A stretch of DNA of 49,218 nt from Bacilli bacterium. Its GTDB lineage: Bacteria; Bacillota_I; Bacilli_A; RF39; UBA660. Positions 28,806 through 41,843 of the stretch are shown here, piece after piece (position 1 is the stretch's first letter; the number at the start of each line of letters is the position of its first letter). Below the pieces are notes generated by a model. The model was not told the DNA's origin and ran no database searches. It saw only the letters and a program-made list of their open reading frames with translations. Location of the stretch: positions 1 to 49,218 of the forward strand of contig JAUVZX010000005.1 of assembly GCA_030602345.1 (NCBI GenBank), written 5' to 3'. The position numbers and the translations under genes are program-made.

Positions 28806-29357
28806 ATGAAACATGAAAGATTAATGAAAGCAATTAACTATATGGCTAAGTGCCATGAAGGACAAATTAGAAAAACAAATGGATTACCTAAAAGCATACA
28901 CTTATTTGGAGTAGCGTCTATTTTATTAAAACACGACTATGATGAAGATATTGTCATCGCTGGATTATTACATGATGTAATTGAAGATACTGATCATACA
29001 ATAGAAGAAATAGAAACATTATTTGGCACTAAAGTAAAAGAATATGTTCTTTTAGAAACCGAAATAGACAAAAAATATTCTTGGAAAGAAAGAAAAGACG
29101 CTCAGATTAATAGTTTTATGAATGCTAGTAAAGAATCAAAAGCAATTGCTGCAGCAGATAAAATGCATAACATGTTATCTTTATTGGAAGATTATCAAAC
29201 TTTAAATGACTCTATGTTTGATAGTTTCAATGCTAATAAACAAGATGTTCTTTGGTACTATCGAGAAATTACAAAAGCTATAACTAATAATGTAGAAGGA
29301 CCTATATTTGATGAATTAAAAGAAATAGCTAAAGAAGTGGAGAAGTTAAATGACTAA
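28806..29357 (+). CDS. HD-domain hydrolase, RelA/SpoT hydrolase-like
   Basis: This 183-residue protein has metal ligands as in small alarmone hydrolases: His32, the HD pair His56-Asp57 in AGLLHDVIEDTD, and a later Asp in ADKMHNMLS. It may hydrolyse (p)ppGpp or another nucleotide. No synthetase domain is present. AGGAGG precedes the ATG and it overlaps the following kinase-like gene by 8 bp. A paralogue lies at 35607. Confidence 0.85.
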   Translation: MKHERLMKAINYMAKCHEGQIRKTNGLPKSIHLFGVASILLKHDYDEDIVIAGLLHDVIEDTDHTIEEIETLFGTKVKEYVLLETEIDKKYSWKERKDAQINSFMNASKESKAIAAADKMHNMLSLLEDYQTLNDSMFDSFNANKQDVLWYYREITKAITNNVEGPIFDELKEIAKEVEKLND

Positions 29358-33148: not shown

Positions 33149-33371
33149 TATAATATTTTTATAAATAAGTGATGATTAATATTAGTAATAATTTAAACGT
33201 TTTTAAAGAGAGCTAATGGATGGTGAGAATTAGTAAAACTTAAATTATGAAATACCTATTATGAACTTATTCGGATAATTCCGTTATAGACATGAGTGCA
33301 TAGTTTACTATGAATTAAGGTGGTACCGCGATTTTTCGTCCTTATTAGGAGATTAGTCGTATTTTTTTTGG
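33149..33371 (+). promoter_or_regulatory. T-box leader of tyrS
   Basis: An extended -10 promoter (TG-A-TATAAT, -10 box at 33149-33154) starts a leader of about 200 nt. It has the T-box core AAGGTGGTACCGCG at 33317-33330, which binds the uncharged tRNA acceptor end, the stem I elements AAGTGATG and AGAGAG, and a specifier TAC (Tyr) at 33253-33255 in the GAAATACC context. An imperfect stem ending in a T-run (to 33368) is the likely terminator. Uncharged tRNA-Tyr should allow readthrough into tyrS. Confidence 0.92.
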
Positions 33372-35255: not shown

Positions 35256-35610
35256 AGAATTTAAAGAATTTATTTCAAAAGGAAATGTAGTTGATTTAGC
35301 AGTAGGTATTATAATTGGTGGAGCCTTTGGTAAGATAGTTTCTTCATTGGTAAATGATGTAATACTACCATTTATTGCCATTTTCTTAAAAAGTGAAGAT
35401 TTTGCATCGGTATATTTAGAAGTTAATGGTTCTAAAATAATGTACGGTACTTTTACGGCAAACGTACTAGATTTCTTAATTATTGGTTTTGTTTTATTTA
35501 TAATTATAAAATCAATTAATCGCTTCAAAAAGAAAGAAGAAGTTAAAGCCCCTTCAAAACCAAATGAAGAAAAACTTTTAGAAGAAATAAGAGACTTATT
35601 AAAAAAATGA
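35248..35610 (+). CDS. mscL: Large-conductance mechanosensitive channel
   Basis: This 120-residue channel opens on membrane tension and releases solutes during osmotic downshift. It has the N-terminal EFKEFISKGNVVDLAVGIII with the pore-lining GGAFGKIVSSLVNDVILP, and a second transmembrane helix FLIIGFVLFIIIKSIN. The cytoplasmic tail EEKLLEEIRDLLKK is characteristic. The ATG at 35248 matches the family start. Confidence 0.95.
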   Translation: MIKEFKEFISKGNVVDLAVGIIIGGAFGKIVSSLVNDVILPFIAIFLKSEDFASVYLEVNGSKIMYGTFTANVLDFLIIGFVLFIIIKSINRFKKKEEVKAPSKPNEEKLLEEIRDLLKK

Positions 35611-36158
35611 ACACTAAATTAGAAGAAGCGATTAAATTAGTTTTTATAGCCCACAAAAACCAAAGAAGAAGAAACATTAATATTGAATTCAGTTATCATC
35701 CAATTACAGTAGGATTTATGCTAAAGGAATATGGAGGTAGAGATGAAGTCGTTATTGCAGGACTTCTACACGATTTAATTGAAGATACTGATTATGACTA
35801 TAAATATATATTTAATAAATTTGGTAAAGAAGTAGCAGACATGGTTATTACAGTTACAGAAGACAATACTATCGAAGATTATCGAGAAAGAAAAACTGCT
35901 TTTATAGGAAATATAAAAAAAGCAAACGATGAAGTTATATTAATTGAATTTTTTGATAAATTACATAATCTATTATCTGATTATGAAACGTTCTTAGAAA
36001 AGAATACATATGACTTATCATCAAATAAATATGAAGATGTAAAATGGTTTTACTTAAGCTTTTTAGAGATATTTGAAGATAGAATTAAAGATCAAACTTT
36101 AATAAACAGATATAAAGAAATAATAAATTTATATTTTCCAAAAAAAGTGTTGACATAG
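35607..36158 (+). CDS. HD-domain hydrolase, second RelA/SpoT-like paralogue
   Basis: This 183-residue protein is the same length as the one at 28806. It has HPITVGFMLKE (His31), AGLLHDLIEDTDYDY (His55-Asp56) and a later FFDKLHNLLSDYE. It may hydrolyse (p)ppGpp or a related nucleotide. It overlaps mscL by 4 bp. Its last codons run into the -35 box of the first small-RNA promoter. Confidence 0.85.
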   Translation: MNTKLEEAIKLVFIAHKNQRRRNINIEFSYHPITVGFMLKEYGGRDEVVIAGLLHDLIEDTDYDYKYIFNKFGKEVADMVITVTEDNTIEDYRERKTAFIGNIKKANDEVILIEFFDKLHNLLSDYETFLEKNTYDLSSNKYEDVKWFYLSFLEIFEDRIKDQTLINRYKEIINLYFPKKVLT

Positions 36159-36185
36159 ATAATTAATATGTGGTATTATTTATTT

Positions 36186-36276
36186 ACCCAATAAATTAGG
36201 TTGAAAAAACCATATTTAATCTTTTAATTAGATTTATCTAATTAAATTAAATACCATTTATTGGGTATTTTTTTTT
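36186..36276 (+). ncRNA. Small RNA, copy 1
   Basis: Promoter: TTGACA 36150-36155 and TATTAT 36174-36179. Closing stem: ACCCAATAAAT (36186-36196) with ATTTATTGGGT (36256-36266). Hairpin GGTT-GAAAA-AACC follows. A long arm TATTTAAT...ATTAAATA encloses TAATTAGA-TTTA-TCTAATTA. A T9 tract at 36268-36276 makes the closing stem also the terminator. Three-way junction predicted by eye. Confidence 0.85.
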
Positions 36277-36323
36277 GTAAAAAAGTGTTGACAACTATAT
36301 TTGATATATGATATTATTAAATC

Positions 36324-36412
36324 ACCTAATAAATTAGATTGAAAAATCATATTTAATGATCTAGTTAGATTTATCTAACTAAATTAAATAATAATTTATT
36401 AGGTATTTTTTT
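36324..36412 (+). ncRNA. Small RNA, copy 2 (most diverged, compensatory changes)
   Basis: Promoter: TTGACA 36288-36293 and TATTAT 36312-36317. The closing stem is ACCTAATAAAT with ATTTATTAGGT: C-G changed to T-A on both sides against copy 1. The small hairpin is GATT/AATC where copy 1 has GGTT/AACC. The inner arm is TAGTTAGA/TCTAACTA where copy 1 has TAATTAGA/TCTAATTA. A T7 tract ends at 36412. Confidence 0.85.
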
Positions 36413-36460
36413 GTAAAAAAAGTGTTGACAAGAATAAATGATATGTGGTATTATTAATTT

Positions 36461-36551
36461 ACCCAATAAATTAGGTTGCAAAAACCATATTTAATCACTT
36501 AGTTAGATTTATCTAACTAAATTAAATACCATTTATTGGGTATTTTTTTTT
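36461..36551 (+). ncRNA. Small RNA, copy 3
   Basis: Promoter: TTGACA 36425-36430 and TATTAT 36449-36454. The closing stem is as in copy 1 and the inner arm as in copy 2 (TAGTTAGA/TCTAACTA). The small hairpin loop is GCAAAA in place of GAAAA. A T9 tract ends at 36551. Confidence 0.85.
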
Positions 36552-36599
36552 GTAAAAAAAGTGTTGACATAGATAAATGATATGTGGTATTATTAATTT

Positions 36600-36688
36600 A
36601 CCCAATAAGTTAGGTTGCAAAAACCATATTTAATCTTTTAATTAGATTTATCTAATTAAATTAAATATCACTTATTGGGTATTTTTTT
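36600..36688 (+). ncRNA. Small RNA, copy 4, directly before the ABC exporter gene
   Basis: Promoter: TTGACA 36564-36569 and TATTAT 36588-36593. The closing stem is ACCCAATAAGT with ACTTATTGGGT: an A-T pair changed to G-C on both sides. T7 tract at 36682-36688, then AAAGGAG and the ATG of the exporter at 36709. No other promoter lies before that gene, so readthrough of this copy is its likeliest transcription route. Confidence 0.85.
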
Positions 36689-36708
36689 ATTTATAAAAGG
36701 AGATCCTT

Positions 36709-38628
36709 ATGAAATTACAATTAAATAAAGTTAAAAAAGAATATAAAATGTCTCAAGGTAATACATTTAAAGCCTTAAGAGGAGTAGATGTATCTTTTGA
36801 AAGTGGAGAGTTAGTATCAATTATTGGTGAATCAGGAAGTGGTAAATCTACTTTGATGAACTTAATTGGAGGACTAGATTCTGATTTTGAAGGAGAAATA
36901 TTATTAAATGGTAATAATATTAGAACTTTTTCGAAGAAGCAATTGGATAAGTATCGAAAGAATAATATTGGTTTTGTTTTCCAATCGTTTAATTTAATAC
37001 CACATCTATCTGTTTTAGATAATGTTACAATTGCTATGACTCTTTCTAATATTTCAAAAAAGGAAAGAATTAATAGAGCAACTGATTTATTAAAAGAAGT
37101 TGGACTGAAAGATCATTTAAATAAAAAACCTAATCAATTATCAGGGGGTCAAATGCAAAGAGTTGCTATTGCAAGAGCTTTAATTAATGATCCTGATATT
37201 ATATTGGCAGATGAACCTACTGGAGCATTAGACTCTAAAACAAGTGAACAAATATTAACTATCATTAAAAGAATTGCTCAAAAGGATAAATTAGTTATTA
37301 TGGTTACTCATTCTAATAAAGTAGCAAGTATATCAAGTAGAGTAGTTACAATTGCTGACGGACTAATTATTTCTGATGAAATTAACTATGAAGTCGAAAA
37401 ATTGAGTTCAGAAGAAACTAAGTTTAATAAAGAAAAACAAAACTTATCATTTTTAAATAGTTTAAAATTGGCTTTTCATAATATGAAAGAGAAAAAAGCG
37501 AGAAATCTTTTAGTTGCTTTAGGAAGTAGTATTGGAATAATGAGCGTTGTTTTGATGCTATCACTTGGTTTAGGAGTCAAAGACTATATAAATACTACTA
37601 TCAAGGGTTTTGCTAATCCTTTGGTAGCAGAAGTCAATATCAAGGTTGATGAAAATGAGTCTCCCTTTGGTAGTCCTAATAGTCGATTATTTACAGAAGA
37701 AGATATAACTATTTTACAAAACATTGACAAAGTTGTTTCTTTGGAAAAAGGTTATAGTATAAATAGTTTTACTAATAATAATATGATATATAATAATCAA
37801 GAAATAAATGTTTCGGCATTAACAACTATTTCTTCTAATATTACATTAGAAAATGTTAAACAAGGTAGTTTTCCAAATCGTGGTGAAATACTAATTAATG
37901 AAGCATTCGAAAGAAGAACTAATGAAAATATGGTTGGTAAGGAAATTACATTATCTCTCACTATTAATAATCAAGTAAAAACTATTGATGTAGTTATATC
38001 TGGTTATCATGGGAGTACTAATTCTGATGTTGGGACAGGTAATACTCAAGTGTATATGCATTTAGAAGATTTAGAAGAGTTATTTGATGAAGTTCCAACT
38101 ACGGTTGTCTATTTAGTGACTAATAGTATTTCGGATACTGAATTTGTTAAATCAGAAATTAATAGATTAGGTTATACTGGTTCACTACAAGAATTAATTT
38201 TAAGTGCTTTTAATGAAATACTTGACGTTATAACATATGCTTTAGCGGCAGTCTCATCAATTTCATTGATTGTATCTGCTATTATGATACTAGTAGTTTT
38301 GTATATTAGTGTCGTTGAAAGAACTAAAGAGATTGGTGTTTTGAAAGCTATTGGAGCAAGAAGTAAAGATATTAAAAGAATATTTTCTGCTGAAGCATTT
38401 TTAATAGGATTATTGAGTGGTTTAATAGGAATTACTGTCACTAATATCTTAGCTATTTTTATAAACAAATTTATTTATAGTTTATACGAATTTAACATTG
38501 TCAATGTAACTATTGAATATATGTTATTTGGAGTACTAGTTAGTATATTAGTAAGTGTTATTTCAGGTTTATATCCGGCTTCAAAAGCTGCAAAATTAGA
38601 CCCAGTTGAATCATTAAGAAGAGAATAG
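36709..38628 (+). CDS. MacB-type ABC exporter, ATPase-permease fusion
   Basis: This 639-residue protein has an N-terminal ATPase domain (1-225) with Walker A GESGSGKST at 40-48, signature LSGGQMQRVAIARAL, Walker B IILADEPTGALD and the H-loop VTHS. The permease has a first helix at about 266-290, a MacB-like extracellular domain at 300-490, and an FtsX domain with three C-terminal helices ending SKAAKLDPVESLRRE. Such exporters expel peptides and antibiotics or signal envelope stress. Transcription is probably linked to the fourth small-RNA unit. No partner permease is present. Confidence 0.93.
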   Translation: MKLQLNKVKKEYKMSQGNTFKALRGVDVSFESGELVSIIGESGSGKSTLMNLIGGLDSDFEGEILLNGNNIRTFSKKQLDKYRKNNIGFVFQSFNLIPHLSVLDNVTIAMTLSNISKKERINRATDLLKEVGLKDHLNKKPNQLSGGQMQRVAIARALINDPDIILADEPTGALDSKTSEQILTIIKRIAQKDKLVIMVTHSNKVASISSRVVTIADGLIISDEINYEVEKLSSEETKFNKEKQNLSFLNSLKLAFHNMKEKKARNLLVALGSSIGIMSVVLMLSLGLGVKDYINTTIKGFANPLVAEVNIKVDENESPFGSPNSRLFTEEDITILQNIDKVVSLEKGYSINSFTNNNMIYNNQEINVSALTTISSNITLENVKQGSFPNRGEILINEAFERRTNENMVGKEITLSLTINNQVKTIDVVISGYHGSTNSDVGTGNTQVYMHLEDLEELFDEVPTTVVYLVTNSISDTEFVKSEINRLGYTGSLQELILSAFNEILDVITYALAAVSSISLIVSAIMILVVLYISVVERTKEIGVLKAIGARSKDIKRIFSAEAFLIGLLSGLIGITVTNILAIFINKFIYSLYEFNIVNVTIEYMLFGVLVSILVSVISGLYPASKAAKLDPVESLRRE

Positions 38629-40542: not shown

Positions 40543-40571
40543 AAAAAGAAGTTATTATAAACTTCTTTTTT
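40542..40571. terminator. Bidirectional terminator
   Basis: AAAAAAGAAGTT (40542-40553) pairs with AACTTCTTTTTT (40560-40571). It separates the convergent LCP gene and the gene at 40555-41193. Confidence 0.85.
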
Positions 40572-41193
40572 GTTGATTAAAATATAATAATTCTTCAAGA
40601 ACATCATTTTCAACTTGTCTGGTTGCATCTTTTATACTCTCACCATTTATTATGGCTCTAATCAACTTTTCAAAATATCTATGAGCTGCGATAAATAACT
40701 CAAGTTCATGACCCTCATTAAAAATATGTTTGCTATGAGTCGCACTTAAGACATTCATGAATCCGTTAGAGATATCAACGTGTCCTTGATATATTTTATC
40801 GTGATTATATCTATCTTTATCAATTTCATAATCCGGCATTAACAAGATAAAATCTGGTTTTTCTAATAATTCGCAGTCGTTCTTCACAAATGCTATAGTT
40901 TCTAATTCTCTTAACTGTTCTTTTATTTCATTGAAACGTTCATTTTCATAAAAATTAGAGTCTGTAAGTGCTATAATGTCTCTTTCTAATTCTAACTTAC
41001 ATATAGAAGAGATTCTATATATATGGTGTTTTATAAAGTCTTCTTGTAGATCTGGTTTTACTTTTTTCAATCTTTTCATCATTTTAAGAACTAATTGCTC
41101 ATCACTAACTACTCGTTTAAGTTCTTTGTGTTTTTTCATTAATATATATTTAGTTTTAATTTTATTTAATAATTCAAAATTTATTTTTTTCAT
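40555..41193 (-). CDS. Unknown protein, paralogue of the gene at 41190
   Basis: This 212-residue soluble protein is charged and helical at the N-terminus, with a conserved core 'KPDFILLMPDYEIDKDRYNHDKIYQGHVDISNGF'-type segment near 108-142. The upstream gene shares this core. No catalytic motif was recognised. It overlaps its neighbour by 4 bp, so the two are co-translated. Confidence 0.65.
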   Translation of the reverse strand: MKKINFELLNKIKTKYILMKKHKELKRVVSDEQLVLKMMKRLKKVKPDLQEDFIKHHIYRISSICKLELERDIIALTDSNFYENERFNEIKEQLRELETIAFVKNDCELLEKPDFILLMPDYEIDKDRYNHDKIYQGHVDISNGFMNVLSATHSKHIFNEGHELELFIAAHRYFEKLIRAIINGESIKDATRQVENDVLEELLYFNQQKRSL

Positions 41194-41843
41194 CTATTTC
41201 TCCCTTTATTATCTGCAAAAGGCATATATTCTAAATGATGTGCTACAACATCATCAACAGCTTCTTTAATATTTAAACCTTTGTTTAAGCGACTAAATAA
41301 AAATATTTCATAATCTCTTGCGAATAACTGCTTAGCATAGTTATTTTTTTTGAAATATCTTCCATTATCATCTTCGAAAATTTGTTGTAAATGATAAATT
41401 TTAACTAGCTTTTTAAAGCCTTCCGAAATGTAAATATGACTTTTATAAGCAACATCTTCTTTGTATCGATCATAGTCAATTTTAAAATCGGGATTTAATA
41501 GAACAAACTTTGGTTGACTTAAGGCATCGCTATTTTCATCAACAAAATTAATTTTTCTAAGTTGATTTCGCATGCTGAATAATTCGGTTTCTTCTTTTCT
41601 TAACTCATCAGTTGTTTCTTCCTCAGTAATTACTTCATAATAATCTAATTTAGCATCGATGATTTCTATTTCCATTTCGTTATAGAAACGATTTCTTAAA
41701 AATTTTATTTCAAAATCATTTAAATGTCTTTTTAAGAAAGCTTGTTCAAGTAAAAAAGATAGGTTTTTAATTTCCAACTTTTGTAACCTTCGATATAATT
41801 TATATTTGTACTTTATTTTTTTAAGTAATTTATCATTAACCAT
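41190..41843 (-). CDS. Unknown protein, paralogue of the gene at 40555
   Basis: This 217-residue protein matches its downstream neighbour most clearly at QPKFVLLNPDFKIDYDRY, then KSHIYISEGFKKL, with similar spacing of the helical N-terminus (KKIKYKYKLYRRLQKLEIKN). It is a tandem duplication encoding perhaps a heterodimer. GGAGG precedes the start. No family was recognised. Confidence 0.65.
   Translation of the reverse strand: MVNDKLLKKIKYKYKLYRRLQKLEIKNLSFLLEQAFLKRHLNDFEIKFLRNRFYNEMEIEIIDAKLDYYEVITEEETTDELRKEETELFSMRNQLRKINFVDENSDALSQPKFVLLNPDFKIDYDRYKEDVAYKSHIYISEGFKKLVKIYHLQQIFEDDNGRYFKKNNYAKQLFARDYEIFLFSRLNKGLNIKEAVDDVVAHHLEYMPFADNKGRNR

Follow-up and report, generated by a model that had tools for sequence, protein, structure and literature searches.

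Here we describe a tandem array of four near-identical units, each of which reads as a candidate small RNA (sRNA) gene, in the 0.76-Mb genome (760,795 bases) of a Bacilli bacterium (Bacilli_A; RF39; UBA660). The window, that is, the whole stretch of DNA that was analysed, comprises 49,218 nucleotides (positions 1 to 49,218 of the forward strand of contig JAUVZX010000005.1, assembly GCA_030602345.1). Within it, the array occupies positions 36140-36694, between an HD-domain gene upstream (35607-36158; 183 residues; Pfam match HD_4) and the gene for a MacB-type ABC exporter (36709-38628, + strand; profiles ABC_tran, MacB_PCD and FtsX); the genes just upstream of the array and the exporter gene lie on the same strand. 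The first unit begins within its neighbour, where the -35 hexamer overlaps the end of the HD-domain gene so that TTG ACA TAG makes up the last two codons and the stop (36144-36158).

The units are 137-140 bp long and show a mean per-column identity of 91% when aligned. Tandem Repeats Finder reported a single array at 36140-36688 (period 139, 4.0 copies, 85% matches, score 828), by far the top scorer among the three tandem arrays of the window, with nothing comparable elsewhere in it, and a BLAST search of the host genome with unit 3 revealed no copies beyond the four. A sequence-only reading of this DNA had described four tandem units of 137-139 bp; the count and the tandem layout are borne out by both the repeat search and the alignment, and the length range needs a slight correction.

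Promoters, fold and predicted terminators of the four units

Every unit carries the promoter sequence TTGACA-N18-TATTAT with a TG extension (an extended -10), matching 11 of 12 consensus bases, at 36150-36179 (unit 1), 36288-36317 (unit 2), 36425-36454 (unit 3) and 36564-36593 (unit 4), all on the + strand. The pattern TTGACA-N14..16-TGNTATTAT occurs in the entire genome at these four sites only and nowhere on the other strand. The hexamers are invariant across the units, and the promoter spacer adjacent to them is clearly variable. Six bases separate the -10 from the predicted +1 in all four units; this +1 (36186, 36324, 36461 and 36600) is the first A of the closing stem of the predicted RNA and lies 7 nt past the -10. 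Given this fixed distance, the predicted transcript would begin at the end of the stem or one base away.

The RNA bodies behind these promoters are 86 nt long and lie on the + strand at 36185-36270 (unit 1, with a U-tract to about 36276), 36323-36408 (unit 2), 36460-36545 (unit 3) and 36599-36684 (unit 4, also the predicted leader of the exporter mRNA). Their minimum free energies (MFE) range from -22.5 to -27.9 kcal/mol, with z-scores of -4.92, -4.83, -6.42 and -7.50 for units 1 to 4, and no shuffled sequence folded as well. The predicted fold is a three-way junction: a closing stem of 12 bp leads into a 4-bp hairpin, whose loop is A-rich, and into a long arm of 8 + 9 bp split by a 3-nt bulge. 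RNAalifold, without being given the structure, returned the same 33 pairs. Apart from the U-tail, unpaired runs are no longer than about 5 nt, and none is both CU-rich and conserved; the bulge reads CUU, GAU, CAC and CUU in the four copies. A covariance model built from the four copies, R1, scores them at 100.6, 77.5, 107.6 and 105 bits, unit 2 being the most divergent copy. When two molecules were folded together, the arm paired between them at about 8 kcal/mol better than two monomers; homodimer formation was rejected as a special feature, since any near-palindromic hairpin pairs likewise.

On the + strand the closing stem directly precedes UAUUUUUUU (U7-9). With the U-tract immediately 3' of it, stem and terminator are one structure, with no separate hairpin. 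A plain terminator scan found no match in the array, because the loop is far bigger than the scan permits. The sequence-only reading had proposed the promoter with its identical spacing, a body of about 90 nt from the +1 and a fold of closing stem, small hairpin and two-part arm, and each of these holds at all four sites, with the stem at or next to the predicted +1. It had also arranged each unit as promoter, body and terminator; the cassettes stand, and the terminator as an element of its own does not.

Four pairs of the alignment have changed on both sides with pairing kept: CG/UA at columns 5/80, AU/GC at 11/74, GC/AU at 16/26 in the small hairpin and AU/GC at 43/58 in the inner arm. These compensatory changes, already pointed out from the sequence for closing stem, small hairpin and inner arm, are all real; a broken pair in the arm of copy 2 (C.A at columns 40/61) had escaped mention. 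The four double-changed pairs compare with a mean of 1.6 in shuffles (4 were reached in 9 of 500), and the covariation score is 0.131 versus 0.066 in shuffles (1 of 500). That the 9 variable columns among 66 paired ones should form four whole pairs plus one has a probability of 6e-5 by counting, with complementarity not yet required. The changes at 16/26 and 43/58 count for more than a terminator, as they lie where a bare terminator would need none. The double changes are transitions in all four cases, consistent with routes via G-U intermediates, and no such intermediates are seen among the changed pairs.

Unit 4 runs directly into the exporter gene. The exporter ATG (36709) lies 24 nt past the point where the closing stem of unit 4, with the first bases of its U-tract, ends, and the ribosome-binding site (RBS; AAAGGAG) stands just behind the U-tract. 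No promoter was found between unit 4 and the ATG, and there is no room for one that keeps the RBS, so that the exporter mRNA would start at the unit-4 promoter, the only plausible proximal promoter of this gene, or further upstream, and would pass the unit-4 terminator. A terminator between a promoter and a gene with no other promoter is the arrangement of a cis-acting attenuator. Judged by this layout, unit 4 is probably an exporter leader with an attenuator, in keeping with the earlier proposal that copy 4 may control the exporter by read-through.

Folding of truncated transcripts indicated that the junction builds stepwise as the 3' strand emerges, and that a transient extended hairpin pairs the 5' strand of the closing stem with the 5' strand of the arm. 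This weak hairpin, seen only in truncated transcripts and formed by columns that do not covary, is a possible antiterminator. A leader peptide was considered and rejected, since the sole TTG start follows a weak AGG at a distance of 1 nt and copy 2 interrupts its reading frame.

Known families, relatives and neighbouring genes

Searches against Rfam release 15 (4227 families), at the gathering cut-off and at relaxed thresholds, assigned the array to no family, the best candidate being TarA at 22.8 bits versus the 80 needed; this agrees with the earlier failure to recognise a known family in it. The sole Rfam match in the whole window is a T-box leader at 33163-33346 (119.3 bits), which directly precedes a tyrosyl-tRNA synthetase gene.

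R1 was run on overlapping sets of genomes covering the family (145, then 386), the order (337), the class (395), 40 relatives with looser filters and five chosen genomes. No copies beyond the four of the array emerged from these sets, which contained no other genome of the same genus; the search scores the best candidates per genome only and could miss a strongly diverged homologue. The only other match with E < 0.01, in genome G451 of the class set (E 0.004 per genome), was rejected, as about 1.5 such matches are expected over the search and it lacks the fold. The matches found by BLAST in phage and plasmid sequences were all short and AT-rich; most of them covered the U-tract and the promoter, and not the RNA body. 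Among viral contigs, the promoter followed by ACCYAATAA occurred at three unrelated places, and the arm and hairpin patterns at none. If expressed, the array RNA would be an orphan RNA family, so far confined to a single species, in a lineage without a close sequenced relative.

A similar layout of promoter and compact RNA is seen in one viral contig (L045:3711-3840), where TTGACA-TGCTATTAT precedes an RNA that is unrelated to that of the array, is very stable (-39 kcal/mol) and ends in a U-tract.

By profile, the neighbours of the array are HD_4, MscL, MacB-type ABC and LytR_cpsA_psr. A second small stand-alone HD_4 protein, also of 183 residues, is encoded in the same window at 28806-29357, and we take both HD_4 proteins to resemble small (p)ppGpp hydrolases. 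Further downstream, on the - strand at 40555-41843, two adjoining genes of 212 and 217 residues have similar-looking sequence layouts, both with LLxPDxxIDxDRY-like stretches; they are possible paralogues.

Interpretation of the array

We favour, with a probability of roughly 0.4, the reading that the array consists of tandem structured sRNA genes, the last of which doubles as an attenuating leader of the exporter, and that the RNA acts by its shape and not through a pairing seed. Transcription from each strong sigma-A-type promoter would begin at the 5' end of the closing stem or one base away; some 86 nt on, the 3' strand of the stem would complete the junction and, with the U-tract, terminate transcription, so that each unit would yield a discrete transcript of about 85-95 nt whose two ends are clamped and protected. 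Units 1-3 would give the short RNA only, and unit 4 the short RNA plus occasional or regulated read-through into the exporter, the same structure serving as attenuator. The RNA would bind a protein or ligand that affects its stability and termination at unit 4, and units 1-3 would supply more of this RNA in trans. Action by shape is favoured because nearly all bases are paired and the bulge varies freely between copies. The half of this reading that concerns structured sRNA genes is well supported: sibling sRNA genes are marked by several near-identical units that share a locus and have a promoter and a terminator each, and at the level of sequence the array shows these features, as it has the four separate promoter-RNA-terminator cassettes that the sequence-only reading had proposed. 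The half that concerns the partner and action in trans is conjecture.

If expressed, the array would be a clear example of a cis element converted by duplication of a leader into an RNA that acts in trans, a step in the origin of small RNAs that is plausible and has seldom been observed. This very small genome keeps four copies of one structured RNA, behind near-consensus extended -10 promoters whose pattern recurs at no other site in it.

Several points weigh against this reading. Expression of the short RNAs is a prediction from sequence, and the binding partner is hypothetical. Both strands fold equally well, so the fold alone leaves the strand unfixed; it is the promoters and U-tracts that set it. 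The nearest exporter orthologue (52% identity, genome G058) directly follows a different gene and has no array unit, and an exporter relative in genome G005 (39%) likewise has no such unit upstream, so that the association of array and exporter is not conserved and not shown to be old. Finally, selection on RNA structure, which had been concluded earlier from the compensatory changes, is not established, because the genomes searched hold only four paralogues in all; template-switch correction of inverted repeats could also yield paired changes.

The junction with the exporter gene also bears on a purely cis-acting interpretation, which we consider unlikely but deserving of real weight: a promoter-attenuator array for the exporter, tandemly duplicated, in which units 1-3 yield their RNAs only incidentally and read-through is tuned by how many units there are. 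It accounts for the way in which unit 4 adjoins the exporter RBS directly, without a further promoter, for the common strand of the upstream genes and the exporter, and for the transient hairpin as a possible antiterminator. However, one unit suffices for an attenuator, and units 1-3 keep intact promoters and end in terminators of their own. The antiterminator pairing is also much weaker than the terminator fold, no leader reading frame has a plausible start, and the closest orthologue of the exporter gene has no array in front of it.

The scarcity of unpaired bases speaks to another interpretation, that of trans-acting, base-pairing sibling sRNAs of the LhrC kind that redundantly silence several mRNAs. 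The genetic layout is that of known multi-copy sRNAs and the individual promoters are strong, but, the U-tail aside, no stretch of more than about 5 nt is left single-stranded to serve as a seed, a BLAST search of both strands of the host genome with unit 3 found no extended complementarity, and Hfq was not above the cut-off in the genome in a search that finds Hfq in B. subtilis as a control. Hfq is dispensable for many sRNAs of Gram-positive bacteria and for most functions of LhrC (PMC13350326). We judge base-pairing siblings rather improbable; an RNA sponge, one of the roles proposed from the sequence, is likewise unlikely if it works through pairing seeds, given that almost no bases are unpaired.

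Similarly doubtful, and distinctly improbable on our estimate, is a lineage-specific, multi-copy, shape-acting RNA in which the three trans copies would be decoys or co-effectors on a factor that controls termination at the fourth, the leader of the efflux pump, in effect a self-titrating attenuation by tandem gene dosage.

The small number of copies further leaves room for the view that no RNA is selected, and that the array is a neutral duplication of a promoter and a quasi-palindrome with pairs corrected by template switching, or a DNA element such as a cruciform or protein-binding repeat. The four copies are paralogues from one species, the changed pairs come without G-U intermediates and either strand folds equally well, all of which speaks for it. 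Yet the hexamers and the +1 spacing are invariant while promoter spacer and bulge vary, the U-tracts follow the stem on the promoter-bearing strand, the four double changes are all transitions, as expected via a G-U intermediate, and one arm pair remains uncorrected. We therefore give a neutral repeat or DNA element a low probability.

Very improbable is that the RNA mimics or derives from a 16S rRNA processing stem and decoys a processing nuclease. An exact stretch of 18 nt (TATCTAACTAAATTAAAT) in the arm of copies 2 and 3 recurs at L041:2831-2848, in the 16S-23S spacer, directly following the 3' end of the 16S; none of 400 shuffles did as well against leader plus spacer, and the leader carries the partly complementary AATTAGTTAGGTA. 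But in a genome-wide search about 0.1-0.4 such matches per genome are expected (extrapolated from match counts in the AT-rich window), and copies 1 and 4 have no exact match; the identity is within genome-wide chance and is a lead only.

An antitoxin RNA of a type III toxin-antitoxin system, the antitoxin-like role suggested earlier from the tandem structured repeats upstream of a same-strand gene, is extremely improbable, as the downstream gene encodes an ABC exporter and the upstream one an HD-domain hydrolase-like protein, and as the units have separate promoters and terminators, fold into nested helices and are about four times longer than ToxI repeats. No toxin of the ToxN, CptN or TenpN kind was found among the array neighbours by profile or by PADLOC, which returned only generic ABC, methyltransferase and WYL profile matches as a link to defence.

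Comparison with known systems

ToxI and its relatives resemble the array in that copies of a folded RNA stand in tandem ahead of a same-strand gene. In ToxI, the toxin cuts the repeats, which are short pseudoknots, out of a single precursor (PMC8860590), whereas the 139-bp units of the array are each equipped with a promoter and a terminator, and no toxin lies next to them. Nearly every base of the array bodies is accounted for by nested folds, and the separate promoters argue against one precursor.

Closer in genetic layout are the LhrC sRNAs. LhrC1-4 of Listeria monocytogenes are encoded by several near-identical genes in one intergenic region (PMC13350326), and the multicopy arrangement of LhrC1-5 is shared by the array. 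LhrC acts through CU-rich single-stranded regions, and its promoters are separately testable (PMC5880928). In LhrC1-5 the CU-rich motifs lie single-stranded between two stem-loops, whereas the array RNA would form a three-way junction that is closed from one end to the other and offers no CU-rich seed; with unpaired runs of at most 5 nt apart from the U-tail, membership in LhrC is not supported.

Unit 4, finally, is like the attenuating leaders of exporter genes, of the riboswitch or antiterminator type, in which promoter, structured RNA, intrinsic terminator, RBS and gene stand in a row. The array differs from these leaders in its four tandem copies and in matching no riboswitch or leader of Rfam. 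It also differs in how termination would be brought about: the known leaders form a separate, mutually exclusive terminator hairpin, whereas in the array the closing stem itself would be the terminator.
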